Origin: Pseudomonas sp. B21-040
GTDB lineage: Bacteria > Pseudomonadota > Gammaproteobacteria > Pseudomonadales > Pseudomonadaceae
NCBI RefSeq assembly: GCF_024748695.1
Contig: NZ_CP087176.1
Location: 2,287,501-2,351,500, forward strand
Direction: 5' to 3'
Length of the DNA: 64,000 nt
Shown: in pieces, positions 15,634-42,097 of the stretch
Layout: every line of letters starts with the position of its first letter
How positions within the stretch are numbered: position 1 is the stretch's first letter
The notes under the pieces: generated by a model
What the model was told of the DNA's origin: nothing
Database searches by the model: none
The model's input: only the letters and a program-made list of their open reading frames with translations
Program-made: the position numbers and the translations under genes

Positions 15634-15710
15634 AGGCACGTAGCTCAGTTGGTTAGAGCACCACCTTGACATGGTGGGGGTCGTTGGTTCGAGTCCAATC
15701 GCGCCTACCA
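15634..15710 (+). tRNA. tRNA-Val (anticodon GAC)
   Basis: 77 bases including an encoded CCA end. The D-arm (TAGCTCAGTTGGTTAGAGC), the anticodon stem CCACC/GGTGG enclosing loop TTGACAT, and the T-arm with GGTTCGAGTCC are all present, reading valine GTC. The acceptor stem 5' strand AGGCACG faces CGCGCCT, leaving an A5-C68 mismatch. The 3' half is the att core of an element stack, and the identical 3' half occurs at 22643 and 41182. A GCGCCT 3' strand delivered by an element onto a host 5' strand meant for GTGCCT could explain the mismatch. Confidence 0.95.
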
Positions 15711-15744
15711 AACAAAATCCGCTCTGCTGGGCGGTCTAGAGGGG
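15663..15744 (+). other. att copy 1 (tRNA-Val 3' half)
   Basis: 82 bases starting in the anticodon stem and running 34 bases past the tRNA end. They are identical to 22643-22724, and the first 78 are identical to 41182-41259. Copies 1 and 3 also share the following terminator, giving 15662-15776 versus 41181-41295 with one difference. This is the left junction of the element stack. Confidence 0.92.
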
Positions 15745-15769
15745 CTCACCGAAAGGTGGGCCCTTTTTT
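15742..15769 (+). terminator. Terminator after tRNA-Val
   Basis: Stem GGGCTCACC (15742-15750), GAAA loop, GGTGGGCCC (15755-15763), then six T. It directly follows the att core and so is supplied by the integrated element rather than the host. Confidence 0.88.
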
Positions 15770-15904
15770 GTTGTCTTGGATTTCTTCAGAACGTTCACAA
15801 AATATCGGGTTCGTTCGCACTGGGCAATGTGAACGCCGATATCAGTTCGTTTTCGGGTGGGATTCTGCTTTGGGGTGGTGGGGGTGGGGTGTTGAAAGTA
15901 GTAA

Positions 15905-16129
15905 TCAGCCCTGCGACTGCTTGATGGCAATATCTCGGATGGTTTGGATATTCTGATGGATTGCTGAAAGTACAAACCACACTCCAGAGCCTAGGCAGCC
16001 TACGGCGAAGCCAATCAGGGCGCCGATGTACTCGTAGTTGCCCTTCATTGCGAAATACCCCACAACCGTTGCAACGATGATTCCTGCCCAGGCGAAGAAA
16101 TTCACTACGGTAATCACGATGTCTTTCAT
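15905..16129 (-). CDS. Small two-helix membrane protein, unknown
   Basis: 74 residues with two hydrophobic segments (about 7-28 and 35-56) and a short charged tail. CAGGAAG lies 6 bases before the ATG on the minus strand. It is the first gene inside element A. Not recognised; resembles small membrane proteins common on islands. Confidence 0.6.
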   Translation of the reverse strand: MKDIVITVVNFFAWAGIIVATVVGYFAMKGNYEYIGALIGFAVGCLGSGVWFVLSAIHQNIQTIRDIAIKQSQG

Positions 16130-16693
16130 TGTCTTTGCTTCCTGCGTGGTTAGAGTTGGGTTACTTTGCCATCATCAGGTTGAGCGGTAAACGGTGGTTC
16201 TAAAAGGGTCTTGGCTCGCAACTATATACAGCGGAATTTTGAGATAGGGTTCTCGCCCTTAAAAATCCGAATGACTGTTTTCAATCGCTGAAAATCAATG
16301 AAAAACGGTGCGCTCCAGCTAGGTCGCGGCCTACACGCTCGTTCCATCTTTCACACACAATTTACGCACAGGTTTATCCACAGGTAGTACGTTGCAACAC
16401 CCTGTGAAACGCATTATCTTGTATCTCGGCGGCGAAAAAACCCTACATGTAGGGGTTTGCCGTTAGCTGCTGACCTCGAACGAGGTACTTAGAAAAGTCT
16501 GCGAATGGTCGTGCTTCGGTCTCCACAACTTAGAACACAACCATCCGCACCAACTAAAGCTAAACAGTAGCGATTACGTTAGCCCTAGGGGGACTGCATT
16601 GAGCCAAACATTGACGTGATCGTCAACGGTTCTCTGCTGGCCGGTAATCCTTGGGGCTGACAAATCTATCCTTTGCTACAAAGGTAAAACGTC
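16130..16693. other. 564-base non-coding region of element A
   Basis: No convincing gene. It holds a DnaA-box match TTATCCACA at 16374-16382 with a weaker TTACGCACA at 16362-16370, and a 14-base palindrome CCCTACATGTAGGG at 16441-16454 flanked by A and T runs. Base composition is poorer in GC than the flanking chromosome. It may carry an origin or control region of the island; that is inference. Confidence 0.5.
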
Positions 16694-16948
16694 ATGCCTA
16701 GTAATAAAAAGCAGTCCTCATCGAAGTCGGCCAAGCTGGCCTCTGAAACCCTCCGCGATCCGCATGCCTCTAAAATTGCCAAAAGTCTCGCAGCCTCCAC
16801 GCTGGCCCAAACCAGCACTGGAAAGCAAACGAGTGCTGAGATGGAGGCGAAAGCAGGGCGGGTACTTCAGAGTGAGAAGTACAGCGAAGAGACGAAGACC
16901 CTTGCAGGCTCGGTCGTGTCTCAGTCCAACAAAGCACGGGGGGAGTGA
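16694..16948 (+). CDS. Small Ser/Ala/Lys-rich protein of a two-gene operon, unknown
   Basis: 84 residues, no Cys or Trp, rich in Ser, Ala, Lys, Gln and Thr, predicted mostly helical and soluble. It starts at MPSNKKQSSSK with AAAGGTAAAACGTC upstream. The gene for a 105-residue protein follows after 3 bases, and a strong terminator closes the pair at 17281. Size and tight pairing resemble a toxin-antitoxin or small effector pair, but neither protein is recognised and no function is claimed. Confidence 0.65.
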   Translation: MPSNKKQSSSKSAKLASETLRDPHASKIAKSLAASTLAQTSTGKQTSAEMEAKAGRVLQSEKYSEETKTLAGSVVSQSNKARGE

Positions 16949-16951
16949 ATC

Positions 16952-17269
16952 ATGCCTTTTCATGCAGTCGTAACGGTCGATTTGGATAACGGCGTCAGCT
17001 CAACAGCTCGCACCAAATTCAATGAAGAACTGAAGAAAAAACACTTCACGAAGCACAAGCTCACAACGCTGTGGACGGTGGTATACGTGGCTGGCACTTC
17101 GAGAGAGGCTGCTGTCAAATATGCCCGTGACAGCATTGATGCTGCCGCTGCTACCGCCGGTATCTCCACCTATGAAGCTTTCGTGTCAATCAGTGAGGCG
17201 CCGCCAGTAGAGTGGAAGAAAAGCGCGACAAACCCTCTCTTGGAGGGGCTGTTGCGGTTCCAGAAGTAA
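16952..17269 (+). CDS. Unknown protein, predicted ferredoxin-like fold, second gene of pair
   Basis: 105 residues. The sequence suggests strand (HAVVTVDL), helix (TKFNEELKKKH), strand (LTTLWTVVYVAG), helix (EAAVKYARDSIDAAAATAG), strand (YEAFVSIS), which is a beta-alpha-beta-beta/alpha ferredoxin-like order also found in Cas2/VapD/GhoS-type small proteins. That comparison is only by pattern; no catalytic motif is identified. CGGGGGGAGTGAATC supplies a strong ribosome site. Three bases separate it from the upstream gene. Confidence 0.65.
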   Translation: MPFHAVVTVDLDNGVSSTARTKFNEELKKKHFTKHKLTTLWTVVYVAGTSREAAVKYARDSIDAAAATAGISTYEAFVSISEAPPVEWKKSATNPLLEGLLRFQK

Positions 17270-17280
17270 AAAGCTTTAGG

Positions 17281-17301
17281 CCCCACCTCGGTGGGGTTTT
17301 T
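17281..17301 (+). terminator. Terminator of the 16694-17269 operon
   Basis: CCCCAC (17281-17286), a four-base loop, GTGGGG (17291-17296), then five T. Ends the two-gene transcript. Confidence 0.88.
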
Positions 17302-17326
17302 CACATCTGGCCATCTGGTTTTTTTG

Positions 17327-17539
17327 CTACTGATAATGTTGACGCAGCTTCTCTATAGCAGTGGTGATGGCGTCTGCATTCAAATCTAGCGTTCCCAATG
17401 CGGTGGTGATGTTGCCGTGCGTATCGACAGAGCCGCGTGCCTCGATCCACAGCGCCACTTCTAAGCCCGGCAGCGATAACATATTGGTTGAGAAGAAGTA
17501 GCTCCAATGCGTCGGCCATCGTTTCGTTGCTGTCGCCAT
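17327..17539 (-). CDS. Hypothetical protein
   Basis: 70 residues from the ATG at 17539, chosen because CAAGGACGACCC sits just before it; an in-frame ATG at 17614 is possible but lacks such a site. Sequence begins MATATKRWPTHW and has mixed hydrophobic and charged composition without a membrane segment. Not recognised. It is divergent from the interrupted lipoprotein gene at 17670. Confidence 0.55.
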   Translation of the reverse strand: MATATKRWPTHWSYFFSTNMLSLPGLEVALWIEARGSVDTHGNITTALGTLDLNADAITTAIEKLRQHYQ

Positions 17540-17669
17540 TGGGTCGTCCTTGATTGAGTTGAAAGAAGATCGTAGCTCGATTCGAGATTGGTTGGTGAAT
17601 CTGTTTGTGCTCATGGAGAACCAACTACAATCTGCGGATTAACTCACGTAGAGCGCCAAGGAAGTCCGA

Positions 17670-17768
17670 ATGAAACTGAGCCTTATTGTCTTGAGCTGTG
17701 CTGTCGCGGTGGTTCTGAGTGGCTGTGCAACGTCTTCCAAAACCTACACCCCTGATGGGCGTGAGGGC
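17670..17768 (+). pseudogene. Lipoprotein gene truncated by IS copy 1
   Basis: An ATG with AAGGAAG upstream opens a signal peptide with lipobox LSGC (Cys19), then ATSSKTYTPDGREG, where the IS begins. Only 33 native codons remain. Start and lipobox show a genuine outer-membrane or periplasmic small lipoprotein before disruption. The rest of the gene is not found on the other side of this IS copy. Confidence 0.75.
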
Positions 17769-17776
17769 TGCAGTGG

Positions 17777-18619
17777 TCAATTAATTCCGGACACCTCGAT
17801 AGGTGGTTTCGACGCCATTGCCCGTTCGTAAACGGTCGGTGGCAGATATCCCAGTTTTGAGTGCAGCCGCTCGTTGTTGTAATACCCAACGATGTATTCA
17901 GTGATGTCACGTATCGCTTCGGCGTGGTTGGCGTAATCGCGCCGCCATACCCGCTCCATTTTCAAACTCAGGAAGAAGCGCTCCATCACTGAGTTGTCCC
18001 AACAGTTACCTTTACGGCTCATGCTTTGCTGCATGTTATTTCTTGTCAGCAGCGCCCTGTAGCTCGCGCTGGCGTACTGGCTACCGCGATCCGAGTGAGC
18101 GATCAGACCAAGTGGCGGTTGACGCTGAGCAACTGCCAGTTGCATGGCACTACACACCAGCTCGGCAGGCATGTTCGGGGCCATGGACCAACCCACGATC
18201 TTGCGTGAGAACAAGTCCAGTACCACGGCCAGGTACAGCCAGCCGCTACGGGTCCGGATATAGGTAATGTCCGCCACCCAAGCCTTGTTCACCGCCGCGG
18301 GTTCGAATTGACGATTCAACACATTTTCAGCGATCGGCAGGTCGTGGTTGCTATCGGTCGTGTGCACAAACTTGCGCTTCCAGGCCGAACGCAGACCGTT
18401 GGCGCGCATCAAGCGACGAATTTTATAAACGCCTATTTCCATACCCTTAGCGCGCAACGCTTTACGCAACGGGCGACTGCCATAGCTGCCGCCACTCGCA
18501 GCAAACGACGCCTTGAGTTGCACAGTCACGGGACAAATCGAGGCTGGCGCTCCAGCACGCTTGTTGGCCTCGTAGAAACCGGATCGGCTGATACCCAGCA
18601 GCCGACAGACATACGCCAC
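17777..18619 (-). CDS. IS3-family transposase OrfB (copy 1)
   Basis: 280 residues read from an internal ATG; in life it is probably made as an OrfAB fusion by -1 slippage on the A7 run upstream. It has the rve integrase core with DDE residues in blocks VADITYIRT, LIAHSDRGSQY and MERFFLSLK. It ends inside the left inverted repeat. It is the catalytic part of the transposase. Confidence 0.92.
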   Translation of the reverse strand: MAYVCRLLGISRSGFYEANKRAGAPASICPVTVQLKASFAASGGSYGSRPLRKALRAKGMEIGVYKIRRLMRANGLRSAWKRKFVHTTDSNHDLPIAENVLNRQFEPAAVNKAWVADITYIRTRSGWLYLAVVLDLFSRKIVGWSMAPNMPAELVCSAMQLAVAQRQPPLGLIAHSDRGSQYASASYRALLTRNNMQQSMSRKGNCWDNSVMERFFLSLKMERVWRRDYANHAEAIRDITEYIVGYYNNERLHSKLGYLPPTVYERAMASKPPIEVSGIN

Positions 18620-18660
18620 CGAATAAGCCTTCTGTTGCAGCTGACGAACCAGGCGATACG

Positions 18661-18987
<327 letters not shown>

Positions 18988-19021
18988 CTATCGAGGTGTC
19001 CGGGGAAATTAGACCACTACA

Positions 19022-19090
19022 GTGTCGGTTACCGAGCTGCGACTGGAACGTTTTGATGGCACTCACTGGGTTGACCATCCGCCGATCTAG
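19022..19090 (+). pseudogene. C-terminal remnant of an unknown gene beside IS copy 1
   Basis: An open frame from the IS edge reads SVTELRLERFDGTHWVDHPPI then TAG, followed 21 bases later by a terminator. This is the tail of a gene whose front part is not on the other side of the IS, so a deletion ending in the IS removed it. Not identifiable from 22 residues. Confidence 0.5.
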
Positions 19091-19111
19091 ATATTTGCCA
19101 CCACCTCCCAA

Positions 19112-19135
19112 GGGCCACCATGCGTGGCCTTTTTC
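19112..19135 (+). terminator. Terminator
   Basis: GGCCAC (19113-19118), short loop, GTGGCC (19124-19129), then a T-run. Belongs to the broken gene ending at 19090. Confidence 0.75.
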
Positions 19136-19376
19136 ACATATCTTCTAGACATTTGTCGGTGAATTGCGTCTTTCAAATACGGCTAACATCAGTTTTGCTG
19201 GATGGTGCATTTCCCTTTTCCTCAACTGAGGCTCGCTAATGAAAGAAGATACAGGGGGTGGTTGTTCATCGCTTGTGTCGCATTGGTTGGCGTGCTGAGC
19301 GGGCTTTTTCCTCTGCATCGATTCCCAATGGGTACGGTATTTGGGGCATTTCCTTATTGGTTGTGGCTTGCAGTGG

Positions 19377-20219
19377 TCAATTAATTCCGGACACCTCGAT
19401 AGGTGGTTTCGACGCCATTGCCCGTTCGTAAACGGTCGGTGGCAGATATCCCAGTTTTGAGTGCAGCCGCTCGTTGTTGTAATACCCAACGATGTATTCA
19501 GTGATGTCACGTATCGCTTCGGCGTGGTTGGCGTAATCGCGCCGCCATACCCGCTCCATTTTCAAACTCAGGAAGAAGCGCTCCATCACTGAGTTGTCCC
19601 AACAGTTACCTTTACGGCTCATGCTTTGCTGCATGTTATTTCTTGTCAGCAGCGCCCTGTAGCTCGCGCTGGCGTACTGGCTACCGCGATCCGAGTGAGC
19701 GATCAGACCAAGTGGCGGTTGACGCTGAGCAACTGCCAGTTGCATGGCACTACACACCAGCTCGGCAGGCATGTTCGGGGCCATGGACCAACCCACGATC
19801 TTGCGTGAGAACAAGTCCAGTACCACGGCCAGGTACAGCCAGCCGCTACGGGTCCGGATATAGGTAATGTCCGCCACCCAAGCCTTGTTCACCGCCGCGG
19901 GTTCGAATTGACGATTCAACACATTTTCAGCGATCGGCAGGTCGTGGTTGCTATCGGTCGTGTGCACAAACTTGCGCTTCCAGGCCGAACGCAGACCGTT
20001 GGCGCGCATCAAGCGACGAATTTTATAAACGCCTATTTCCATACCCTTAGCGCGCAACGCTTTACGCAACGGGCGACTGCCATAGCTGCCGCCACTCGCA
20101 GCAAACGACGCCTTGAGTTGCACAGTCACGGGACAAATCGAGGCTGGCGCTCCAGCACGCTTGTTGGCCTCGTAGAAACCGGATCGGCTGATACCCAGCA
20201 GCCGACAGACATACGCCAC
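19377..20219 (-). CDS. IS3-family transposase OrfB (copy 2)
   Basis: 280 residues, same protein as in copy 1, with the DDE core intact (VADITYIRT, LIAHSDRGSQY, MERFFLSLK). Expected to be expressed as an OrfAB frameshift product from the A7G site at 20293-20300. Confidence 0.92.
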   Translation of the reverse strand: MAYVCRLLGISRSGFYEANKRAGAPASICPVTVQLKASFAASGGSYGSRPLRKALRAKGMEIGVYKIRRLMRANGLRSAWKRKFVHTTDSNHDLPIAENVLNRQFEPAAVNKAWVADITYIRTRSGWLYLAVVLDLFSRKIVGWSMAPNMPAELVCSAMQLAVAQRQPPLGLIAHSDRGSQYASASYRALLTRNNMQQSMSRKGNCWDNSVMERFFLSLKMERVWRRDYANHAEAIRDITEYIVGYYNNERLHSKLGYLPPTVYERAMASKPPIEVSGIN

Positions 20220-20260
20220 CGAATAAGCCTTCTGTTGCAGCTGACGAACCAGGCGATACG

Positions 20261-20587
<327 letters not shown>

Positions 20588-20852
20588 CTATCGAGGTGTC
20601 CGGGGAAATTAGACCACTACAGCTGTTCGCTGGAGCTGCGGTCTAAAAGAGATGCACGAGAGTGGCGGGAACAGACGATATACCAGTCGCCCGGACTGAT
20701 TCAATCTACTGTAATGGGAGTGGCATAAGTTCGGACAAGGCGGGGGCGGAGTACATAGTTTCTAATTTTACTTGTGTTCCGGAAACCTATCCATTCAGAG
20801 GGAGGGGTAAATCCCCTCCTCTGAGCGTAAGTAGGATATAAGGGGGATGAAA

Positions 20853-21086
20853 CTAATTTCCTTTCTTGTCAGAAAGAACACGAGTGACCATCCAGCCAAG
20901 ATACAGCAAGGAGGCGAACGAGAAAGTCACAAAAAAAACAAATACCTGCACTGGCTGAGACGCCATTTTAGGCAGCTCATAAAAGATGATAATCGGCATC
21001 AGAGTGGCGATGACGACAACAAGGTAGCGCGGGTTATGTTTGAATGCTTCAACAACAGAGCTGACGACGGAAGCCAGAGCTTTCAT
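20853..21086 (-). CDS. Small two-helix membrane protein, unknown
   Basis: 77 residues from the ATG at 21086 (GAGGTGCTCCTG before it; a longer form from 21143 is possible). Two hydrophobic helices at about 21-37 and 45-67, with an amphipathic N-terminal helix. It lies alone in element A, and the second membrane-protein gene of the island has the same size class as the one at 15905. Not recognised. Confidence 0.6.
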   Translation of the reverse strand: MKALASVVSSVVEAFKHNPRYLVVVIATLMPIIIFYELPKMASQPVQVFVFFVTFSFASLLYLGWMVTRVLSDKKGN

Positions 21087-21143
21087 CAGGAGCACCTCAA
21101 AACCATTTGCTATACGCTCATATATCGGATTTGCATGACGCAT

Positions 21144-21611
21144 GCGGTTCCCTGAGCGTTAAGCTATTAGCGTCATCTACTTTCCATAGGAAACCTCCTC
21201 TTTTGATTATGTAACACTAGTCGCATTTTTCAGGTGGTCAACGTAAGGGCCTTTGATTCCGATGAACGGGTAAGTTTTCGGCAACGCCTGTTTCGGGAAT
21301 CAATTTGGCAAGTTAGGTACGGTCGGGAGTTTGGATATCACCTCCAGTTTCTGTGCTGCACTTGCCCCATGACTGTACACATCGGATCTCAGGTTCCCGT
21401 TTCATACCCCACCAACTCTGCATTCAACATACCTTGCACGCCCGCCCTTACAAGCTGAGTGATGACAGTCTTACGGATGGAGTGAAAGACTTGCTGAGTA
21501 CAGATCTATGCGTTCTCTTGAGCCTGCCAAACGCCTTTATCGATGGTTCCTAACGAGTTTTTGGGGCCGCCAACCTTTCGGTTATTCGAGGCTGGCGGCC
21601 CATCCGGAGTG
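21144..21611. other. 468-base region without a convincing gene
   Basis: Short frames here have no ribosome site or recognisable composition. A perfect inverted repeat GGGCCGCCA (21564-21572) / TGGCGGCCC (21593-21601) lies just past the integrase stop; it lacks a T-run on the integrase strand, so it is at best a weak terminator. Confidence 0.4.
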
Positions 21612-22568
21612 TCAATCAATAAGGTGCAGAACATCCCTGACATTCAAATGGGAGTACCGGGCAACGGATCGTGTATCCCGGTGACCTGAGACAATCATGA
21701 TCTGTGCGTTGTTGAAGCCCTTCTTGGCGACGTTTGTGATTCTGGTGTGCCTGAGCTGGTGCAGTCTGACGCTGCTATCGAGTCCAGCCTTTACACGCGC
21801 CAGACGCACAGCCTGAGATACGGCGTGTGGAGTGACGGGGAATAACACTCCATTTGGGTGGCGTTCCACAGTGGCCCACAGTTGGGCGAGTTCTAGAATC
21901 TCAACAGCTCGGTGGGTAAGGGGAACGGATCGTGTGCCGTTCTTTCCATCGATCACATCGGCAATGCGGTCTTTGAGGTGCAGGCAGTCTCGCGTCAGTT
22001 TCAAGATTTCAGAGCGCCGCATTGCAGTCTCGTAGGCCAGCTCAACAATGAGTTTCATAGTGGGAGACAGTTTCGCTAGCAACAGCTCAAGCTCGCTCGC
22101 ACGGATTACCTTGTCAGAAGACCGGTCGGGTTTTGGAAGCGCGATATCACTCACTGGGTTGTGAATGTCGATCAGTAACCCGCGTTTGGCGAATTGGTAG
22201 AACCGCGACATGAATGCGAGCTGCGTTCTGCACGTGGACGGCTTCACCTTCTGCAATCGCATAATCTTGAAGTCATTGATCATCTGCGGCGTGATTTCAT
22301 GAATGGGCTGTGTGAAGTGCTTACCCAGATGCTCCACGATCTTCAGTGCGTGGTCGTAGCTTCCTTTCCCCTTGAGCATGGTTTCGCAGTAGGTCATGCC
22401 CAACGTATAGATGGTGTGGTGCTTGCGATCCATCGTCACAGCTTCGACCTGGCTCGCCCATGACTCTGCTTCGGCTTTGGTGCTGAAGGTTTTCGACTGT
22501 GGAGCTTTACCCTTTACCCGTACCTGAGCGTTCCAGTTGCCGGACGGCAGTAAGCGGAAGTTGGCCAT
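21612..22568 (-). CDS. Tyrosine recombinase (integrase) of element A
   Basis: 318 residues. The N-terminal part includes an AP2-like/arm-binding beta segment and a SAM-like core-binding domain (residues about 60-145). The catalytic domain has R in ETAMRRSEI near 187, HQLRHTR near 272, GHRD near 294 and the nucleophile Tyr in ARYSH near 305, so it looks active. Its 5' end faces att copy 2, 75 bases away. It should integrate into or excise from the tRNA-Val 3' end. Confidence 0.93.
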   Translation of the reverse strand: MANFRLLPSGNWNAQVRVKGKAPQSKTFSTKAEAESWASQVEAVTMDRKHHTIYTLGMTYCETMLKGKGSYDHALKIVEHLGKHFTQPIHEITPQMINDFKIMRLQKVKPSTCRTQLAFMSRFYQFAKRGLLIDIHNPVSDIALPKPDRSSDKVIRASELELLLAKLSPTMKLIVELAYETAMRRSEILKLTRDCLHLKDRIADVIDGKNGTRSVPLTHRAVEILELAQLWATVERHPNGVLFPVTPHAVSQAVRLARVKAGLDSSVRLHQLRHTRITNVAKKGFNNAQIMIVSGHRDTRSVARYSHLNVRDVLHLID

Positions 22569-22642
22569 TTTTGACGCCTCATAGTGTGAATGGGCGTTCT
22601 GTGAAACCCTTGAGCACCAAGGCTTGCAGCTTGCTCAAGCAG

Positions 22643-22724
22643 ACCTTGACATGGTGGGGGTCGTTGGTTCGAGTCCAATCGCGCCTACCAAACAAAATCC
22701 GCTCTGCTGGGCGGTCTAGAGGGG
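22643..22724 (+). other. att copy 2 (tRNA-Val 3' fragment)
   Basis: 82 bases identical to 15663-15744. The 5' half of the tRNA is absent, so this is not a functional tRNA. It is the junction between elements A and B. Confidence 0.93.
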
Positions 22725-22749
22725 TCACCGGAAACGGTGACCCATTTTT
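22722..22749 (+). terminator. Terminator after att copy 2
   Basis: GGGTCACCG (22722-22730), GAAA loop, CGGTGACCC (22735-22743), then A and five T. It has the same design as those after copies 1 and 3 but a different stem sequence. Confidence 0.85.
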
Positions 22750-22760
22750 GCTTTCTGCGA

Positions 22761-22803
22761 TTTGCAAAACTTTTGCAAAACTTTTGCAAAACTTTTGCAA
22801 AAC
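22761..22803 (+). repeat. Four tandem 11-base repeats (TTTTGCAAAAC)
   Basis: Units at 22761, 22771, 22782 and 22793; the first lacks one T. Each contains the palindrome TTTTGCAAAA. They lie between the att core and the relic of element B's integrase, where arm-type integrase or excisionase sites would be expected. Confidence 0.85.
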
Positions 22804-22809
22804 CCCCAC

Positions 22810-22945
22810 TCAAAACGCCAACTCGGCGCCCACCTCCAGGTACTCGATCTTCTTTTCGTCGTGCCCCTCCTGATAGTGCTTCGTCATCTTCTCGTCCGCA
22901 TGCCCCATCAGCGCCTGGATGTACTCCTGTGCATGGCTGATCCCT
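22810..22945 (-). pseudogene. C-terminal relic of element B integrase
   Basis: On the minus strand a frame reads QEYIQALMGHADEKMTKHYQ and continues EGHDEKKIEYLEVGAELAF to a TGA at 22810-22812. It contains the GHxD...Y end of a tyrosine recombinase with the nucleophile Tyr. The rest of the gene is missing upstream of about 22945. A closely similar relic follows att copy 3. Confidence 0.82.
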
Positions 22946-23040
22946 CGGTGTGGGGTTGCGTGTATTCGTCAGCACTCGGCCCGTCTGCTGGTTGCCGTTG
23001 GGCGCAGGGGAGAGTGCTGACGGATAAACGCTGGGCAAAA

Positions 23041-23068
23041 GAAAGGCCCGTGGACGTTCGGGCCTTTC
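23041..23068. terminator. Hairpin with perfect 10-base arms
   Basis: GAAAGGCCCG (23041-23050) and CGGGCCTTTC (23059-23068). T and A runs within the arms allow termination in either direction. It separates the integrase relic from the regulator gene. Confidence 0.65.
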
Positions 23069-23317: not shown

Positions 23318-23320
23318 ACC

Positions 23321-27807: not shown

Positions 27808-27809
27808 AA

Positions 27810-32307: not shown

Positions 32308-32315
32308 GAGGCGCA

Positions 32316-32906: not shown

Positions 32907-32909
32907 CGA

Positions 32910-34365: not shown

Positions 34366-34383
34366 TTCGGTATAATCCAGGGC

Positions 34384-35895
34384 ATGATTTCCATGCCCGA
34401 AAACCTCCCCGATGATCCTGAATTGCTCAAGCAGATGCTTGCGAAGATGCAGTCCAGAGTCGGTTTCCTCGAAGAAGAAAATGCGCTGTTACGTCAGCGC
34501 CTGTTCGGACGCAAGTCCGAGCAAACGGCTGATCCGGCAACGCCGCAGTTGGCCCTGTTCAATGAGGCGGAAAGCGTCGTCGAACCCATTGATGAAGCCG
34601 CAGAAGAAGAGGCTGTTGCGCCGACCCAGCGGCGTGGCAACCGCAAGCCGCTGCCGGCCGATCTCCCCCGTATCGAAATCATCCACGAACTGCCCGAGCG
34701 TGAACTGACTTGTGCCTGCGGCTGCCGCAAACACGCCATCGGCGAGGAGGTCAGCGAGCAGCTTGAAATCGTGCCGATGCAAATCCGCGTGATCAAACAC
34801 GTCCGTAAGGTTTACGGTTGCCGTGCCTATGAAACGGCACCGGTCACTGCGGACAAGCCCGCTCAGTTGATTGAAAAAAGTATGGCCAGCCCAAGCGTGC
34901 TGGCGATGCTGCTGACCACCAAATACGTGGACGGTTTACCGCTTCACCGTTTCGAAAAAGTGCTGGGCCGCCATGGCATCGATATCCCGCGCCAGACCCT
35001 GGCCCGCTGGGTTATCCAGTGCGGCGAACACTTGCAGCCACTGCTGAATTTAATGCGCGACCAGTTGCTGGAAAGCCGAATCATCCACTGCGATGAAACC
35101 CGCGTGCAGGTGTTGAAAGAGCAGGATCGGGAACCCAGCAGCCAGTCCTGGATGTGGGTGCAAACCGGTGGCCCGCCCGACAAGCCAGTGATCCTTTTCG
35201 ACTACTCCACCAGCCGGGCGCAGGAGGTGCCGACGCGCCTGCTTGATGGCTATCGCGGATATGTGATGACCGATGATTACGCCGGTTACAACGCGCTGGG
35301 CGCGCAGGACGGGGTTGAACGTCTAGGTTGCTGGGCGCATGCACGGCGCAAATTCGTCGAAGCGCAAAAAGTGCAGCCCAAAGGCAAGACGGGACGTGCC
35401 GACATCGCGCTGAACCTGATCAACAAGCTTTATGGCATCGAACGCGATCTACAGGCCGGCAACGACGGCGAGCGTAAAACCGGTCGTCACGCGCACAGCC
35501 TGCCGGTGCTGGCTCAGTTGAAAAACTGGATGGAAAAGACACAGCCTCAGGTCACAGCTCAGAACGCCCTGGGCAAAGCCATCAGTTATCTGGCCAACAA
35601 CTGGAACAAACTTGCGCGGTATGTCGAGGAAGGCTACTTGCCGATCGACAACAACCCTGCCGAACGCGCCATCAGGCCCTTCGTGATCGGAAGGAAGAAC
35701 TGGTTGTTCAGCGACACGTCCAAAGGCGCGACGGCCAGTGCCCAACTTTACAGCCTGGTCGAGACAGCCAAAGCCAACGGCCAAGAGCCCTATGCGTGGC
35801 TGCGCCACGCACTTGAGCGCCTGCCGACGGCTTCTTCGGTTGAGGATTACGAAGCTTTACTGCCCTGGAACTGCTCGCCGGTATCGCGTAGTTAA
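34384..35895 (+). CDS. tnpC: IS66 TnpC transposase
   Basis: 503 residues. An N-terminal coiled coil ([28 protein letters not shown]), a zinc-binding CACGC segment near 117, and a DDE core with HCDETRVQV near 237, [10 protein letters not shown] near 303 and [18 protein letters not shown] near 425. It seems complete. Its last nine codons lie inside the first 404-base repeat unit. Confidence 0.95.
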
Positions 35896-35964
35896 ACGCG
35901 CTATTTATCTTGATGGCTGGCGGGGTTTACGGTGAGCTTAAAGAGTACGAACGGAGCAACGATC

Positions 35965-36225
35965 ATGGAATACGACGATAAACTGATTGAAGAAGCCGTG
36001 CTTGCCCTGTTGGCAACCTTCAGCTTTGATAACGGCAATGCTTGGAAAGGGTTCGACTTCGAGACCATGAACCGATTACATGAACATGGTTTCATCAGTA
36101 ATCCGGTGAACAAGAACAAATCGATTTGGTTGACGGCTGAAGGGTTGGAGCGAGGTCGGCAGATAGCCGACCGGTTGTTTGGGGTAAGAACTCAAGTGGA
36201 GCATGTATCCGACTCGGATATCTGA
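35965..36225 (+). CDS. IS66 passenger protein, DUF6429-like (copy 1)
   Basis: 86 residues from the ATG at 35965 (CGGAGCAACGATC before it). Acidic start MEYDDKLIEEAVLALL, then NGNAWKGFDFETMNRLHEHGFI and NKNKSIWLTAEGLERGRQIADRLFG: a winged-helix-like shape. It resembles a family often found beside IS66 transposases (DUF6429, by memory). Function unknown. Confidence 0.75.
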   Translation: MEYDDKLIEEAVLALLATFSFDNGNAWKGFDFETMNRLHEHGFISNPVNKNKSIWLTAEGLERGRQIADRLFGVRTQVEHVSDSDI

Positions 36226-36368
36226 CTTCATACCGCGGACATACGGTAGGTGGGGTTTATGGATCGCATACGAACTGCTCGCCGGTATCGCGTAGTTAAA
36301 CGCGCTATTTATCTTGATGGCTAGCGGGGTTTACGGTGAGCTTAAAGAGTACGAACGGAGCAACGATA

Positions 36369-36629
36369 ATGGAATACGACGATAAACTGATTGAAGAAGC
36401 CGTGCTTGCCCTGTTGGCAACCTTCAGCTTTGATAACGGCAATGCTTGGAAAGGGTTCGACTTCGAGACCATGAACCGATTACATGAACATGGTTTCATC
36501 AGTAATCCGGTGAACAAGAACAAATCGATTTGGTTGACGGCTGAAGGGTTGGAGCGAGGTCGGCAGATAGCCGACCGGTTGTTTGGGGTAAGAACTCAAG
36601 TGGAGCATGTATCCGACTCGGATATCTGA
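36369..36629 (+). CDS. IS66 passenger protein, DUF6429-like (copy 2)
   Basis: 86 residues, identical in sequence to copy 1. It exists because the last 404 bases of the element are duplicated; the ribosome site is the same apart from one base before the ATG. Confidence 0.75.
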   Translation: MEYDDKLIEEAVLALLATFSFDNGNAWKGFDFETMNRLHEHGFISNPVNKNKSIWLTAEGLERGRQIADRLFGVRTQVEHVSDSDI

Positions 36630-37025
36630 CTTCATACCGCGGACATACGGTAGGTGGGGTTTATGGATCGCATACGGTATAAGCGAGGGATGGAGCGCCT
36701 CCAATGAAAATGCCGATTGGTTGTTCACAGCTTTTGTCGCCCCCAAACAAACTCCAGATGAGGCTTACGCCGTAAATAAGGCCGCCCAAGTTTCCCTTCT
36801 GGTTCGGGCGTCAGAGAATATGACGCCGCTCTTGCTGTCGCTCCAACTGGGTGATGCGACAGAGGCAGAAATCGCGCTGGCCAAACGTTGGCAAACGTAT
36901 TCTCGAGCGCTGCAAACGGTAGACTTGGCTAATGAGCTTCCCGCTTGGCCCGCTATACCTTCCTGATGTAAGTCCATAACCCTGCCCGTTCCGACCCGTG
37001 AAGGGTATTTGTTGGGATGTAATTA

Positions 37026-38489
37026 CTATTCGGGGGCTTTTTGGTCTTCGAAAATAATGCTATATCTCGATAATATAGAAGAATTTGTCGCCACTATTGA
37101 ATACGTAAGGACTATTGCGTACGCAACTGCTATCGCTAAATTCTTAATGGATAAAAGGTTGTTGATTCTAGGCATGCAAAATTTGAATGCAATTGCGCCG
37201 TAGCAAAGAACTTGGAGCGGAAGGAAGAATCGCGTCTCGATTGCTCCAGGAATTATTGCTGCCACTGGAATGATAAATACGAACGCCCAAAAAATTCTTG
37301 CTATAATTTCTGCGTTAGGTTTGGAGGGTTCGAAGGTCCTCTCTAAAATTCCCCGAACAAGAAAAAATAAACCGAGAAAGAATACTGAAAGGCTTATTGC
37401 GGAGCGAAGCTTTTTCTCATGCGACGGGGATGTTGTATAAACCTCGTGGTCGCGAACGTCGATACCGTTAATGAAGTGCTTTAAATATATCTTTGAAAAC
37501 TCAACAGGCTCTGACAATACCATGTCTAGATACCACGGCACTGTCGCCGTTATCTCGGTCATTCCATATTTCTTGAAAAAGGTTTCTCCTGCCGGGTCGA
37601 AATAATAGATGCCAGATACCGTCTCGCTTTTTTCATCGAGTAAAGTTTCATAGCGCTGTATCGTGATGCCCCATTTCAATTGAGTGGCAAAGAGAGAGGC
37701 ATCGCCAATTTTTGATATTACAAATGGCGAAGGATTGTCAAAGTGCTTCATGTTGATCAATACTTGAGGTGTGGAGCATGTTGCGGCGCCAGCAATGAAA
37801 GTAAGAGTTGCGAAGGTTCTGGTTGTTATAGAATTGGATCTAAATATTACTAATGGCACTGCAATAGTTAGTGCGGTCAGCGTAAATACATAAATTGATC
37901 GAGTATTGCACGCTCCGTAAGCAACCATTCCTGCAAGAAAAACCAACGGAAACACACCGTATGGGGATTTGTTATCCTTGGCACAAATCAAAAGGTAAAC
38001 ACTAATAAAAGTCAGCGTAAGAGCGGGGAGGTCGCTTAGAGGGTAAGATACGAGCCCCGGGAAAAATATGGCAACAAGTGATGGAACTATAAGTCGCCTA
38101 GGCAGCGTGTCTGCTCCACCAAAAATTTTTATAAACAAATTAGGGAAGATAATACAAAGACTGTAGCTGTACGCAACAGCTTGTAGAATTCTTAATGGTA
38201 GATATCCAAATTGCGGCATGATTTCGGATAGGTACTTTGCGGGTGAAAGCAAAAGCGGGAAAAAATACCCCCGAAGGTTTTGAGGGAATGAGAAGTCCCA
38301 AATGTACGAGCTTAGATACCAGTAGTCTTTCGCATCGCCTAGAAATATTTTTGCATTGATAGATTTTTGCGCTAAGTAAAATATAAATGTTGCCGCAATA
38401 AAAGCGATAATTTTCTGATTTTTGTTCGTGACTTTTTTTATTTGCGCGAGCCACGTTGCTTTAGTTGATCCCAAGGCCAGTGTTTCCAT
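37026..38489 (-). CDS. Polytopic membrane protein, candidate serotype-conversion glycosyltransferase
   Basis: 487 residues with about ten hydrophobic helices and one large soluble loop (around residues 270-365). It has no signature I can name. It resembles GtrC-like or PMT-type membrane glycosyltransferases that phages use to alter host O-antigen, with acidic residues in the first periplasmic loop (GDAKDYW near 52). The gene is clearly AT-richer than its neighbours, on the opposite strand to the phage late genes, and sits between tail and lysis genes, a moron position. Function is inference. Confidence 0.65.
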   Translation of the reverse strand: METLALGSTKATWLAQIKKVTNKNQKIIAFIAATFIFYLAQKSINAKIFLGDAKDYWYLSSYIWDFSFPQNLRGYFFPLLLSPAKYLSEIMPQFGYLPLRILQAVAYSYSLCIIFPNLFIKIFGGADTLPRRLIVPSLVAIFFPGLVSYPLSDLPALTLTFISVYLLICAKDNKSPYGVFPLVFLAGMVAYGACNTRSIYVFTLTALTIAVPLVIFRSNSITTRTFATLTFIAGAATCSTPQVLINMKHFDNPSPFVISKIGDASLFATQLKWGITIQRYETLLDEKSETVSGIYYFDPAGETFFKKYGMTEITATVPWYLDMVLSEPVEFSKIYLKHFINGIDVRDHEVYTTSPSHEKKLRSAISLSVFFLGLFFLVRGILERTFEPSKPNAEIIARIFWAFVFIIPVAAIIPGAIETRFFLPLQVLCYGAIAFKFCMPRINNLLSIKNLAIAVAYAIVLTYSIVATNSSILSRYSIIFEDQKAPE

Positions 38490-38593
38490 GCTATGCCTTT
38501 TACTCCTTCGCGATGATATTTCGTGTTGTTTTTATGCAGCCGTAAAATTCTACAGCATTCCGCATTAAATTTATTCGCCATCGAAACCCAAAA

Positions 38594-38618
38594 ACCCGCC
38601 AAGCGCGGGTATTTTTTT
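38594..38618 (+). terminator. Terminator before endolysin gene
   Basis: ACCCGC (38594-38599), 5-base loop, GCGGGT (38605-38610), A, then seven T. Separates the membrane-protein gene from the lysis genes. Confidence 0.78.
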
Positions 38619-38633
38619 GCCCGGAGAAAAGTC

Positions 38634-39059
38634 ATGGCCGTAACTGAAAAAGATCGCAACATCCTCGCCCGCACACTGTGGGGAGAGGCGCGCGGCGAAA
38701 GTTTGGCCGGCCAGATCGCCGTGGCCTGGACCATCCGCAACCGCGTGTTCGATGGAAAGACTAGTTCATGGTGGGGGGAGGGCTACGCCGGCGTGTGCCA
38801 GAAGCCGTATCAGTTCAGTTGCTGGAACAAGAACGACCCAAACTTCGCGTACCTCAGCGGCGCGAAGCCGATTCCGCTCCGTGAATTTACCCAGGCGCGG
38901 ATCGCTGCCGACCAGGTGATCGATGGCAAGGTTCCTGATCCCACTGGTGGCGCGACCCATTACTACGCTATCGCCATGAAGACACCGCCAGCCTGGGCGG
39001 CAAAGGCGAAACAGACCCTCAAACTGAATGGCCACGTCTTTTTCAAGGATGTGCCATGA
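38634..39059 (+). CDS. Phage endolysin, SleB/cell-wall hydrolase family
   Basis: 141 residues from the ATG at 38634, after CCGGAGAAAAGTC. The Hydrolase_2 (SleB) landmarks are LARTLWGEARGESLAGQIAVAWTIRNRV near residue 10, VCQKPYQFSCWN near 52 and GATHYYA near 110, including the catalytic Glu in GEARGE. It degrades peptidoglycan during lysis and has no signal peptide, so it needs the holin. Overlaps the next gene by 4 bases. Confidence 0.9.
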   Translation: MAVTEKDRNILARTLWGEARGESLAGQIAVAWTIRNRVFDGKTSSWWGEGYAGVCQKPYQFSCWNKNDPNFAYLSGAKPIPLREFTQARIAADQVIDGKVPDPTGGATHYYAIAMKTPPAWAAKAKQTLKLNGHVFFKDVP

Positions 39060-39373
39060 CCGCATTCAGCAGAGTGTCCCGCGTTCTGGCCACTACCGAG
39101 GAAGGAAGCCTTTGGTTTGAGTGCCCTGGCTGCGAGATGGTGCACCGGATCATGCACGGCGCCGGACCGGGTCCGCGCTGGGGATGGAACGGAAATCTGG
39201 AAAGCCCAACGTTTACCCCTTCGGTTCTGGTGCGCTATTCATGGTCCGACGGGGATAGGGTGTGTCACTCGTTCGTAACTGACGGCCGCATTCAGTTTCT
39301 TGGCGATTGCACCCACGCACTGGCCGGGCAGACCGTGGATCTGCCTGCTTGGGAGGACGAGCAATGCCAGTAA
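39056..39373 (+). CDS. DUF6527-like phage protein
   Basis: 105 residues. LWFECPGCEMVHRI near residue 20, WGWNGNLESPTFTPSVLVRYSW near 42 and CHSFVTDGRIQFLGDCTHALAG near 70 fit a small zinc-bound beta-protein family seen in phage lysis cassettes (DUF6527, by memory). Starts in the endolysin stop and overlaps Rz by 10 bases. Confidence 0.75.
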   Translation: MTAFSRVSRVLATTEEGSLWFECPGCEMVHRIMHGAGPGPRWGWNGNLESPTFTPSVLVRYSWSDGDRVCHSFVTDGRIQFLGDCTHALAGQTVDLPAWEDEQCQ

Positions 39374-39894
39374 CGATTCCGTGGAAATTGATCGGCGTGC
39401 TGGCGCTGGCGCTGGCTCTGGTCGCCGCCGGAAGCGCCTGGCGGATTCAGGATTGGCGCTATGGAAAGCAGCTCGCCGAACAGGCTGGGCTGCATCAAGT
39501 CGACCTGACCACCATCAGCAACGCGGCCGCCGCCCAGGTGCGTGCGGATCAAGACAAGCGGCTGGCGCTCGAGCAGCGGCTAGCGGCCAGCGATCAAACC
39601 CACCACAAGGAGCTGACAGATGCTCAAACTGATCAGGCGCGCTTGCGCGATCGCCTTGCCACTTCTGATTTGCGGTTGTCAGTCCTCCTTGACGCCACGG
39701 ATCCAGCCAGTGGCTGTTCAATGCCAGCCGGTACCGAAACCGTCGGCGTGGTTCATGGAGGAGCGCGCGCCCGACTTGACCCAGCGCATGCTCAACGAAT
39801 TGTCGCCATCACCGACGCCGGCGATCAGGGACTGATTGCGCTGAAGGCGTGCCAGGCATACGTCAGAGAGATTTCCGCTCCCGCTTTTCCATGA
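39364..39894 (+). CDS. Inner-membrane spanin (Rz-like)
   Basis: 176 residues: an N-terminal membrane anchor (LIGVLALALALVAAGSAW) then a long helical periplasmic coil, typical of i-spanin. It contains an out-of-frame gene for the outer-membrane partner. Rz and Rz1 join to fuse the membranes in the last lysis step. Its last 32 bases overlap the convergent gene at 39863. Confidence 0.84.
   Translation: MPVTIPWKLIGVLALALALVAAGSAWRIQDWRYGKQLAEQAGLHQVDLTTISNAAAAQVRADQDKRLALEQRLAASDQTHHKELTDAQTDQARLRDRLATSDLRLSVLLDATDPASGCSMPAGTETVGVVHGGARARLDPAHAQRIVAITDAGDQGLIALKACQAYVREISAPAFP
39620..39835 (+). CDS. Outer-membrane spanin lipoprotein (Rz1-like), nested in Rz
   Basis: 71 residues in the +1 frame wholly within Rz. 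Signal peptide with lipobox LLICGC (Cys19) followed by a proline-rich short chain (PVAVQCQPVPKP), the standard Rz1 look. Nested coding is the lambda Rz/Rz1 arrangement. The ATG has AAGGAGCTGACAG upstream. Confidence 0.87.
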   Translation: MLKLIRRACAIALPLLICGCQSSLTPRIQPVAVQCQPVPKPSAWFMEERAPDLTQRMLNELSPSPTPAIRD

Positions 39895-40207
39895 GCAACC
39901 TCTGGTTTTCTCTAAACAGGTGATCTCGCTGGTCGGCTATCAGCTGGAGGCTATAAGCCTTACTGGATAGTTCAGAATGCTCTTCTTTAAGGCGGTTCAA
40001 CTCAGCTCGTAGCTGATCCCGCTCCTGGGACACGTCGGCATGCATCTGCACCAAACCGAAGATGTCTTCGCGGGCTTTGCGCAATTGCAGGGTCAGTTCC
40101 TGCACCTCGTTTTCCGTCATGCGCAGGAAGTAGCGACAGGTTTCAAGTTCAGTCGGGCAGCCAAGCCAGTCGCTGGTGTCTTCGATTTCGAGGGGGTCCA
40201 CGGTCAT
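39863..40207 (-). CDS. SOS-boxed coiled-coil protein, unknown
   Basis: 114 residues, almost fully helical from about residue 25 on (EVQELTLQLRKAREDIF, then ERDQLRAELNRLKEEHSELSSK and LFRENQRLLMEKRE), with heptad-like leucines. No domain is recognised. AAGG precedes the ATG, and a perfect LexA-type box lies 12 bases further upstream, so it should be induced by DNA damage. It is convergent to, and overlaps, the spanin gene; strong expression would be antisense to the lysis genes. Confidence 0.72.
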   Translation of the reverse strand: MTVDPLEIEDTSDWLGCPTELETCRYFLRMTENEVQELTLQLRKAREDIFGLVQMHADVSQERDQLRAELNRLKEEHSELSSKAYSLQLIADQRDHLFRENQRLLMEKRERKSL

Positions 40208-40219
40208 GCCTTATCTATA

Positions 40220-40235
40220 CTGTTTGGATATACAG
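40220..40235 (-). promoter_or_regulatory. LexA box
   Basis: CTGTTTGGATATACAG, an exact CTGT-N8-ACAG match, 12 bases upstream of the coiled-coil gene start at 40207 on the minus strand. AT-rich centre as in Pseudomonas SOS boxes. Confidence 0.78.
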
Positions 40236-40547
40236 TAATCGATGCGCAAAACTCAGGCGAGTATGAAGCGACGATCAGTAGAGTTTTGGGTTGGTGTTCG
40301 GTCGGCAGGACGCCGTAGGTGGTATTTTCTGCGGGAAATTCTTCCCCAAAATGCAACCGTTTGGACCAGTGTTTATTGGGTTTTAAAGAGTCGCAAAAGG
40401 TGGTGATTTTTGTGGCTCATTTGTAGCTCAAGGCCTTGATTATAAAGGCTTTTGACGATTTCTATACGGCATCCCAGGCTTTGATACGGCGATTCAATCT
40501 CTACGATGGTGTTCGATAAAGTCCGGCCGTCAGTTGCAGGCGGCGCA
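40236..40547. other. 312-base region, no gene seen
   Basis: No frame with start signal or coding look on either strand. It lies between two minus-strand genes; the left part presumably holds the promoter for 39863-40207. Confidence 0.5.
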
Positions 40548-40829
40548 TCAATTAAATTTTAAAGCAAAAAGATAATTTGCAACGTTTGCTCCACGCTGCG
40601 CGAACTCTTCGACATCGTTTTCGAATGCCTCTACTTCACTTAAGCCGCACTCATCCAGGCAGAGTATGATTGCCTGACGAAAGTGGTCAGTGCTGATACG
40701 CACGCCAAGTTCTTCAAATGCGGCTTTCAATGCGAAATAGAAGCGCTGGTTATCGAAAAAACGACCGGTATGCCATGTGTCCTCGCGGAGCCAAGGTTTC
40801 AGCAGGATTTTGAGTTTTTCAATTTCCAT
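40548..40829 (-). CDS. Hypothetical protein
   Basis: 93 residues from the ATG at 40829, preceded by GGGGTGGTTAT; the frame opens earlier, but that part covers an operator-like palindrome. It has aromatic-rich DTWHTGRFFDNQRFYFALKAAFEELG and is acidic toward the end (EVEAFENDVEEFAQ). No family recognised. It is the last gene before att copy 3, a position that often holds accessory cargo. Confidence 0.58.
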   Translation of the reverse strand: MEIEKLKILLKPWLREDTWHTGRFFDNQRFYFALKAAFEELGVRISTDHFRQAIILCLDECGLSEVEAFENDVEEFAQRGANVANYLFALKFN

Positions 40830-40846
40830 ATAACCACCCCAAAAAT

Positions 40847-40864
40847 ATCTGACGTCCGTCAGAT
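40847..40864. promoter_or_regulatory. Operator-like dyad
   Basis: ATCTGACG, two bases, CGTCAGAT: perfect 8-base arms, 17 bases upstream of the start at 40829. A regulator binding here would control that gene. Confidence 0.5.
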
Positions 40865-41181
40865 GTCCGTACCCTATTTTCAACCTCAGATCGAGTAAAG
40901 CAGGTGAAACCGGATATTTCCAACGTAAGGATGCGCCCGGTTTCTGTGGCCCTGAGTGCTGGTGTTACCCCTTCGGAATCTCGGTGTAATTCTGCTCTGG
41001 TGCGGTGACACACGGGCGTCATGTCGGTCCGTTGCGACAGCCGCCTGCGGTGAGAGGCTACTACTGTAGGAATATACAACGCTAAGTTATTGATTTTTAT
41101 AGGGTGCTGTCGCGGTTTTGCACCCGCCTTAAGACACCTATTTTTCTTTATAGATCATATGCTTGCATGGGTTTAGGGGTC

Positions 41182-41263
41182 ACCTTGACATGGTGGGGGT
41201 CGTTGGTTCGAGTCCAATCGCGCCTACCAAACAAAATCCGCTCTGCTGGGCGGTCTAGAAGGG
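41182..41263 (+). other. att copy 3 (tRNA-Val 3' fragment)
   Basis: The first 78 bases match copies 1 and 2 exactly, then one change (A at 41260). Right junction of element B. Similarity to copy 1 continues to 41295. Confidence 0.92.
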
Positions 41264-41288
41264 CTCACCGAAAGGTGGGCCCTTTTTT
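41261..41288 (+). terminator. Terminator after att copy 3
   Basis: GGGCTCACC, GAAA loop, GGTGGGCCC, then six T; same sequence as the terminator after the intact tRNA. Confidence 0.82.
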
Positions 41289-41341
41289 GTTGTCTGTGTT
41301 TGGGCAAGCTGTGGGAATATTTTGGGCAAACGACCACCGCG

Positions 41342-41700
41342 CTACACCTTCAGGTCGGCTTTGACCTTCATATAAGCCACCGCATCATCGCCGTGCCCTG
41401 CCTGGTAGTGCTCGGTCATCTTTACGTCAGCGTGCCCCATCTAGCCCTGAATGTATTCCTGCTCGAAACCCTGCTGTACGTACAGCCTGGCGCCGAGTGC
41501 GCGTATCTCGTGAAAGGTGGGGCGCTCACCGGTCGGCACGTTCTGGTAGGCCTTCGAATCGTCCTGCGCCTGGGCGAAGACTTGGTCAGCCATTCCTTTT
41601 TGAAACGCTCCAGGCGGCCGCTGAACTTCGGTGCGGCGTCACCGGTGAGCATCGCCAGCAACGCCCCGTCGTCAGTCAGTAGCGGAAGCAGCTTGGCGTT
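41342..41700 (-). pseudogene. Degenerate integrase C-terminus (third element relic)
   Basis: From the TAG at 41342-41344 (minus strand) the frame reads back VKADLKV, then MGHADVKMTEHYQAGHGDD, with an in-frame stop just before it, and upstream ERPTFHEIRALGARLYVQQG. That is the HExR...GH..Y end of a tyrosine integrase related to the relic at 22810. Further upstream (about 41560-41690) the frame reads FSGRLERFKKEW, which I cannot place. A premature stop and truncation make it inactive. Confidence 0.78.
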
Positions 41701-42097
41701 GGCAGCGTTGGCTACCTATTTCCGCGCAAGCAAGTCCGCTGCTGGAGAGCGATTGCAAATGCCAGTTCGGCCTTTGTTGCTCACCCTTCTGCTCTAATCG
41801 CTGAAGGCGAGGTGCAGGCCGGCGACGGGTCGGGTGGCGCAGGTGGCAGACGGGCGCGCAATGATCGAAGAGTCTTGGACTGGACGATACCCACGCGACA
41901 GGAGGCTGGTCGATCTGCCGCTGCTGGAATGCGGGTAGGCACATCTCCCAAAACAGCAGTGCCGGACCAGCGCTTGGAATTGTGCGCATTCTAATTTCAT
42001 TCGACGAGTGGGTTGTTGGTAAGGGGCTTTCAGCGGCGCAAATTATTCGTGATTCGGGCGTAAGATAGCAGTGCTACCTCACCAAAAGGAGCCGCAT
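41701..42097. other. 397-base region without a gene
   Basis: Degenerate sequence after the integrase relic; short frames have no start signals. Presumably scar between the element stack and the chromosome. Confidence 0.45.

Follow-up and report, generated by a model that had tools for sequence, protein, structure and literature searches.

Tandem integrative elements at a tRNA-Val(gac) gene in the genome of Pseudomonas sp. B21-040

Three copies of a tRNA 3' half and the integrases beside them

The window analysed here is a stretch of 64,000 nt (positions 2,287,501 to 2,351,500) from the 6.75 Mb single-contig genome of Pseudomonas sp. B21-040. It carries an intact tRNA-Val(gac) gene (15634-15710, forward strand), the only tRNA called in the window by ARAGORN and the sole close full-length match to this gene in the genome. 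The gene is the shared integration target of a tandem array of integrative elements: element A (15663-22642), bounded by copies 1 and 2 of a repeated attachment site (att), element B (22643-41181), a defective prophage, and element C (41182-42050), a remnant of about 0.9 kb made up of an att copy and an integrase scar. The att repeats that they share are copies of the tRNA 3' end, and each type has been found elsewhere without the others.

Att copy 1 (15662-15776, forward strand) comprises the tRNA 3' half from the anticodon stem onwards, a trailer hairpin and an intrinsic terminator. Copy 2 (22643-22724) and copy 3 (41182-41259) are in the same orientation; the former is followed by a terminator of the B type, while the latter has the commonest terminator type and resembles copy 1 as far as about 41299. 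The exact repeats measure 82 nt between copies 1 and 2 (15663-15744 and 22643-22724), 79 nt between copies 1 and 3 (15662-15740 and 41181-41259) and 78 nt between copies 2 and 3 (22643-22720 and 41182-41259). This confirms an earlier reading, made from the sequence only, which had reported an 82-base repeat at 15663 and 22643 and 78 bases of it at 41182. With the terminator included, copies 1 and 3 are 99% identical over 115 nt (query 29-143), whereas copy 2 is 91% identical to copy 1 and differs in its terminator. A 157-nt query gave 17 matches in the whole 6.75 Mb genome and no further copy of comparable length among them; the other 14 matches were weak, 13 of them lying in the first 63 nt of the query at 75-85% identity and one being a 30-nt terminator match. 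A chance origin of the repeats is excluded, and the three repeats are attachment sites. Since two tandem full tRNA-Val genes occur in some relatives (L160, L161 and L162), the copies might be thought to be decayed tandem tRNA-Val genes. This explanation is extremely improbable, because the orphan copies of the window start at the anticodon stem and have no 5' half, an integrase or the relic of one lies beside each copy, and the phage PotUPM1 carries the same half.

Each att copy is followed by its own arm-site array and integrase, those of A, B and C respectively. The A-type array of GTTCAC / GTGAAC repeats (15777-15840) forms the left end of element A, the B-type array consists of TTTGCAAA repeats (22758-22808) and the C-type array of TTTGGGCA-like repeats (41297-41340). 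IntA (21612-22568, reverse strand) is an intact tyrosine integrase of 318 aa with a match to Pfam Phage_integrase (E 4.3e-22); its start codon is 74 nt from att copy 2, and open copies with 92-94% identity are present in five other genomes. The integrases of the other two elements survive only as relics on the reverse strand. At copy 2 the last 39 residues are left (22813-22929, corresponding to residues 340-378 of an intact IntB), with 82% identity to IntB against 61% to IntC. The relic at copy 3 (41345-41715), recognised by alignment to an intact IntC, consists of two pieces, residues 300-379 (75% identity) and 48-101 (65%), and contains one stop; the middle, residues 102-299, is missing. 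This relic shows 75% identity to IntC against 64% to IntB. The positions given earlier for one intact and two relic integrases agree with these coordinates.

Seven intact IntB-like open reading frames (ORFs) were found. The B-type integrases, 90-100% identical to the IntB of locus L054, had TTTGCAAA arms in four of four cases and the C motif in none. Conversely, the two C-type integrases of L052 and PotUPM1 were accompanied by C motifs and not by the B motif; they are 75% identical to each other and about 70% to the B group. The seventh integrase, that of L168, is 84% identical to IntC and 70% to IntB, and C arms were read at its tRNA, but it was left out of this scoring because its core was not found within 400 nt. 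Beside the tRNA-Val genes of many relatives, too, A, B and C arrays were found and went with the integrase lineage. Judged by their sequences, IntB and IntC are two related sub-lineages (integrases about 70% identical) with differing arm repeats, so that three integrase specificities, two of them related, share one core. The sequence-only reading had proposed two integrase types. It was right in that the relics are related to each other and the intact integrase is different, but since the relics are nearest to different integrases and are accompanied by different arm repeats, we count three specificities instead of two.

The terminator found at copy 3 was present in 89 of the 182 att copies read (duplicates counted), and in the A elements of L042-L044 the terminator put on the tRNA differs from the one at the far end. 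Two hairpins are nevertheless kept in the trailers. For 45 of 48 distinct att copies (three shorter than 55 nt were dropped), 98.6% of the paired cells were standard, compared with a mean of 86.6% and a maximum of 89.2% for shuffled trailers. Double changes occurred in 8 of 17 pairs but were equalled by some shuffles, so it is the pairing percentage alone that discriminates. The elements bring a structurally equivalent trailer and terminator along with the tRNA 3' half.

The site in related genomes and the origin of the stack

From the genus 149 genomes were drawn, including that of the window. The tRNA query matched in all of them at E 1e-9 or better (G130 only at 5.7e-10), and the tRNA 5' pattern was present in 147. 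At least one orphan 3' half, defined as a 49-nt pattern without the 5' pattern, was found in 14 of the 149 genomes, and two in the genome of the window only; these counts are too low, since halves beginning at base 32, which some A elements have, escape the pattern. A further 60 sites, a non-random set, were taken from the better-scoring tRNA matches not previously fetched. The csrA gene lies 28.7 kb from the tRNA in the window. At the 60 sites this distance was 1.2-2.4 kb in 20 cases and 2.9-18.6 kb in another 20, and in the remaining 20 csrA was outside the stretch. The distance is a marker only, and some of the far ones may be due to phage genes, as the C-type prophage of L052 contains a csrA-like gene (about 10142-10297) with 75% identity to that of its host over 52 residues. 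No second att copy was present at any of the 20 compact sites.

Element A occurs alone, with both sides read, in L044 and L082 (the integrase of the latter is cut at residue 202), and also in L061, where the tRNA is outside the stretch and the far flank was read. B is alone in genome G098, its left end (L054) and right end (L055) being 56 kb apart with the middle not read, and C is alone in L168 with both sides read. Directly on the tRNA, the B type was found in L040, L041, L050, L054, L137 and L159 and the C type in L052, L126 and L168. Stacks, too, were read from the arm motifs. A was followed by B in ten loci, among which there may be duplicates (L063, L064, L065, L068, L069, L072, L073, L086, L108 and L109). 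A was followed by C in L043, L062, L066 and L071, B by C in L041 and C by B in L045, while L072 of P. bubulae had A, B and C in this order. In L042 a C-like relic lies past the A element and an insertion sequence. Comparison with related strains, which had been proposed as a way of finding empty sites and lone elements, has yielded compact sites and each type alone.

These arrangements bear on two other explanations of the locus. The first is that the 26 kb form one composite element, delimited by copies 1 and 3, which moves as a whole; copy 2 would then be incidental. The two outer copies are indeed the closest pair and could in principle recombine. However, relatives carry A, B and C one at a time or arranged differently, each of the three arm arrays goes with an integrase lineage of its own, and BLAST comparison of the window with L040-L113 revealed no locus that has the block whole or as one collinear piece. 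A composite element is therefore highly improbable, and movement of the whole 26 kb as a unit, which had been named as the observation that would speak against a stack, was not encountered. The compact sites, the occurrence of each type alone and the A-C, B-C, C-B and, in another species, A-B-C arrangements all show that the 26 kb is not one unit. According to the second explanation there was a single insertion of a prophage of the B/C kind; the two relics would then be the ends of one duplicated or rearranged phage, and only A would be separate. In both relics a C-terminal part of the integrase is in fact preserved, the two integrases are related, and the place after the att copy is the same. 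Yet one is nearer to IntB and the other to IntC, their arm motifs differ, both types sit directly on the tRNA in other genomes, and B-C, C-B and A-B-C stacks exist elsewhere, so that this explanation, too, is improbable, if somewhat less so than the first.

Very probably, then, tRNA-Val(GAC) is an integration hotspot for at least three tyrosine integrase lineages, and three events gave the arrangement tRNA - A - B - C. How they may have come about is indicated by phage PotUPM1 (OQ633420). It carries the tRNA-Val 3' half (80% identity over 107 nt) 48 nt past the stop codon of a homologue with 72% identity to IntB, and this half represents an attP. The identity common to copies 1 and 3 and the PotUPM1 attP starts at CACCTTGACATGG, in the anticodon stem and loop. 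Tyrosine recombinases that integrate at the anticodon loop of tRNA genes are a recognised class, and it is in this stem and loop that strands are expected to be exchanged. The identity observed here, which runs from there through the 3' end, fits this type of integration. The class has been named IA (PMC2647930).

In the proposed mechanism, attP would consist of an element arm, the tRNA 3' half with its trailer and terminator, and the arm array. The crossover would take place in the anticodon loop, where the identity begins. By recombination the 3' half of the element would replace that of the host, leaving the tRNA intact, and the host half pushed aside in this way would end up marking the far end of the element. 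The probable order of insertion is C, then B, then A. It is read from the state of decay, which suggests that C is the oldest and A the youngest, since C is a scar, B is deleted and retains a 39-residue remnant of its integrase, and the integrase of A is intact. Only A would still be able to excise by its own integrase.

Several points weigh against this account. The sequence-only reading had inferred at least three elements stacked by successive insertion, and the relatives support it, but the third is a mere remnant, there is no fourth att copy, and the order is deduced. C would count as an element only through its integrase scar, and its original right end is uncertain, since only some relatives have the adjoining carbonic anhydrase gene. 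The junction sequences are compatible with every order of insertion, as the arms after each att copy would be those of its own element in any case. Excision of A, B or C is a proposal drawn from sequence, no circular form having been observed. The single C calls in the stacks of L041, L043, L062 and L072 are each based on one motif, and an IntA element distal to a prophage end in L110 and L111 indicates that proximal insertion is no rule. Finally, att-like repeats in strains without elements had been put forward as an objection to the stack. The compact sites have no second att copy, but in 16 of the 20 an arm motif persists at most 200 nt from the tRNA (of B type in 14, of A type in one and of C type in one), so that few represent a pristine attB; these motifs are read as scars of lost elements.

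The right end of C was placed at about 42050 because alignments of the conserved flank start at 42029-42053 in seven loci (L041, L051, L065, L066, L067, L070 and L089). The span of 15634-41800 suggested earlier therefore ended slightly short. The carbonic anhydrase gene (42363-43115) was considered as cargo of C, but this was not adopted since the junction near 42050 also follows other arrangements in these seven loci. Moreover, in L169 the tRNA is followed by the carbonic anhydrase gene and then csrA, and a second att copy is absent.

Tandem accretion of integrative elements and prophages at a tRNA attB is a known concept. The structure of the window is of this known kind, an ordinary insertion hotspot that its relatives make unusually legible. 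As in tandem accretion, several elements lie head to tail at a tRNA 3' end, each restoring the tRNA, with att copies between them. Unlike there, no conjugative element was found in the window, where the three arm-site systems belong to a small element with an integrase, to a prophage and to a scar. The likeness to PotUPM1 consists in an integrase of the IntB/IntC type (72% identity to IntB, 75% to IntC) beside an attP with the tRNA-Val 3' half and C-type arms. PotUPM1 differs in being a 35.7 kb circular genome, deposited as complete, with P. otitidis as host, and over its first 11.6 kb, the part compared, only scattered short translated pieces matched beyond the integrase/att end. MT839008, at first sight a tiny phage with an attP, was rejected as a parallel; it contains the full tRNA together with upstream sequence and is read as a chromosomal prophage fragment.

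Prophages and prophage remnants with integrases and putative att sites of 60-104 bp overlapping tRNA genes have been described in P. fluorescens Pf-5 (PMC2647930), but there the tRNAs are Ser, Cys, Leu and Lys, and the accessible text of that paper describes no three-element stack. The accessible text on P. fluorescens SBW25 describes I23, I44 and I55 as tyrosine-integrase islands that lie at a conserved RNA gene, lack transfer genes and are flanked by direct repeats (PMC12595487). These islands differ from the window in their tmRNA site, repeats of 14 bp, larger size and putative defence genes, and I55 was moved experimentally by a jumbo phage (PMC12595487). A literature search, for which subscription papers were mostly out of reach, found no description of this tRNA-Val(GAC) hotspot among the matches listed. 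Insertions by three integrase specificities, one with its integrase intact, one decayed and one almost gone, make this single site a readable record of the reuse and erosion of a hotspot.

The IntA elements

Element A has a length of 6.98 kb and belongs to the window-like branch of the IntA family. It contains two small genes on the forward strand (16694-17269), which encode proteins of 84 aa (phrog_5079, of unknown function) and 105 aa (no family). They are followed by two nearly identical IS3-family copies on the reverse strand (about 17768-19022 and 19369-20623), identified as repeat families and by NCBIfam transpos_IS3, which have the same orientation and are about 0.35 kb apart. Overall, the few small genes of the element gave no useful family matches. 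Among the A-family proteins scanned, no convincing match to structural genes was seen. Defence cargo in A elements was considered and rejected, as none of ten proteins from the elements of relatives matched PADLOC at E 0.01; element A of the window was outside that scan. No relaxase or conjugation genes were detected among the proteins of elements A and B scanned against Pfam, PHROGs and NCBIfam, a scan that did not cover every ORF.

IntA was found in 21 of 398 genomes of the genus (E up to 1e-70). Relatives of it were present at 48 loci in the genome collection, of which 31 were titled Pseudomonas, and 29 of these 31 had a copy of the tRNA-Val 3' half; the half was missing from L084, a contig of 3 kb, and from L105, a fragment of 65 residues. 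The elements fall into two branches. Nine of the window-like branch (88-94% identity to IntA) have att pairs and measure 3.3-10.1 kb. The compact branch A1 comprises 17 distinct elements with att pairs and the c1 gene, whose integrases are 71-79% identical to IntA and whose lengths of 6.18-6.57 kb have a standard deviation of 116 nt. The recurring gene run of A1 codes for the integrase, a small winged-helix protein that weakly matches O-like initiators, two proteins without assignment and a small protein; most elements have a helicase-like protein (phrog_2467) ahead of the last of these. The cargo beside the tRNA turns over while element size stays nearly constant, and the lengths of cargo and remainder are inversely related (r -0.80; standard deviation 248 when permuted, with none of 20000 permutations as small), although the elements are related to each other. 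This hints at a size limit.

Wherever the tRNA-side end of an A1 locus was read, in 24 of 24 cases, it contained the first 24 nt of tRNA-Val in inverted orientation (22-24 of the 24 positions) with some of the leader, 288-325 nt from the att core. The 24 loci represent 18 distinct elements (L042, L043, L044, L071-L080, L095, L110, L210, L212 and L215), the eighteenth being L080, which was not sized but has c1-c4. No such copy was seen in any of the 99 other loci with a core, of which some (for example L109 of A1 and several A loci lacking the tRNA) stop short of that end, and it is absent from the window, where the best match is 16 of 24. Few stretches of the non-coding end of A1 are as highly conserved as this copy. 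Its match to its own host exceeded that under permutation (mean 32.25 against 30.79 of 34 nt, 0 of 20000), a comparison in which the descent of host and element is confounded and which does not include L071 and L110, two of the 18 elements whose loci lack the tRNA. RNAalifold gave no convincing covariation on either strand of this region, and with Rfam only the tRNA itself scored above the gathering threshold.

A tentative idea, which we consider unlikely, is that the IntA elements are a minimal, possibly helper-dependent (satellite-like) family sharing attB with temperate phages. In A1 the inverted, host-matching leader and first 24 nt of tRNA-Val might then act, as RNA or DNA, as a partner of the tRNA 5' half, and element A of the window would be a relative without that part. 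The inverted copy may, for example, shield the tRNA from antisense read-through of the operon of the element, or it may help in recognition of the target half that attP lacks. The inverted 5' end is testable and has no explanation in the literature searched.

Outside the genus, a search made without a positive control found the A1 helicase in none of 369 class-wide genomes. Within it, 21 of 398 genomes had relatives of the helicase, many with an identity of only 24-33%. The line between the branches is blurred by L200, in which a distant helicase relative (26%) lies near an integrase with 92% identity to IntA. In eight loci (L198, L201-L205, L207 and L208) helicase relatives are located 0.3-2.5 kb from ORFs of 430-464 aa that resemble tyrosine recombinases by matches of 23-34% or by a motif, with no tRNA in the stretch. 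Such pairs suggest a wider class of small elements. In L074 and L110 the far att copy of an A1 element is followed by A arms 97% identical to those of the window, an A1 element being stacked on a window-like A end. L087 and L096 look like fusions of a B left end with an A right end, having a B-type arm motif on the tRNA side and a disrupted IntA on the other.

The defective prophage B

Scans with Pfam, PHROGs and NCBIfam identified element B as a defective prophage of 18.5 kb. Its genes include those for an antirepressor, O-like and P-like replication proteins, a YbcO-type nuclease, Q, a holin, a fragment of the terminase large subunit (TerL), baseplate proteins, a tail fibre and an endolysin. 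It is not a functional temperate prophage, as it has the integrase relic and the TerL fragment, and the ORFs scanned included none recognisable as a gene for capsid, portal or tail tube. The TerL fragment (29716-30381, forward strand) overlaps the next ORF (30369-30782), and baseplate wedge genes and the tail fibre gene follow at 30782-33791 on the same strand.

A second, internal tyrosine recombinase (26398-27807, forward strand) is placed between the replication genes and Q. It has homologues in 165 phage records, 147 of which are Vibrio phages. Phage PseuP_224 shows the same arrangement and has an integrase at its left end in addition.

An ORF of 487 aa (37026-38489) without an NCBIfam match lies in the part of the window with the lowest G+C content (41% in 37001-38000). 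Prophage B also contains an IS66-type element (34006-35895, forward strand; NCBIfam transpos_IS66). Beside it, at 35868-36571, lies a tandem repeat of 300 nt with a spacing of 404, which duplicates an ORF of 97 aa.

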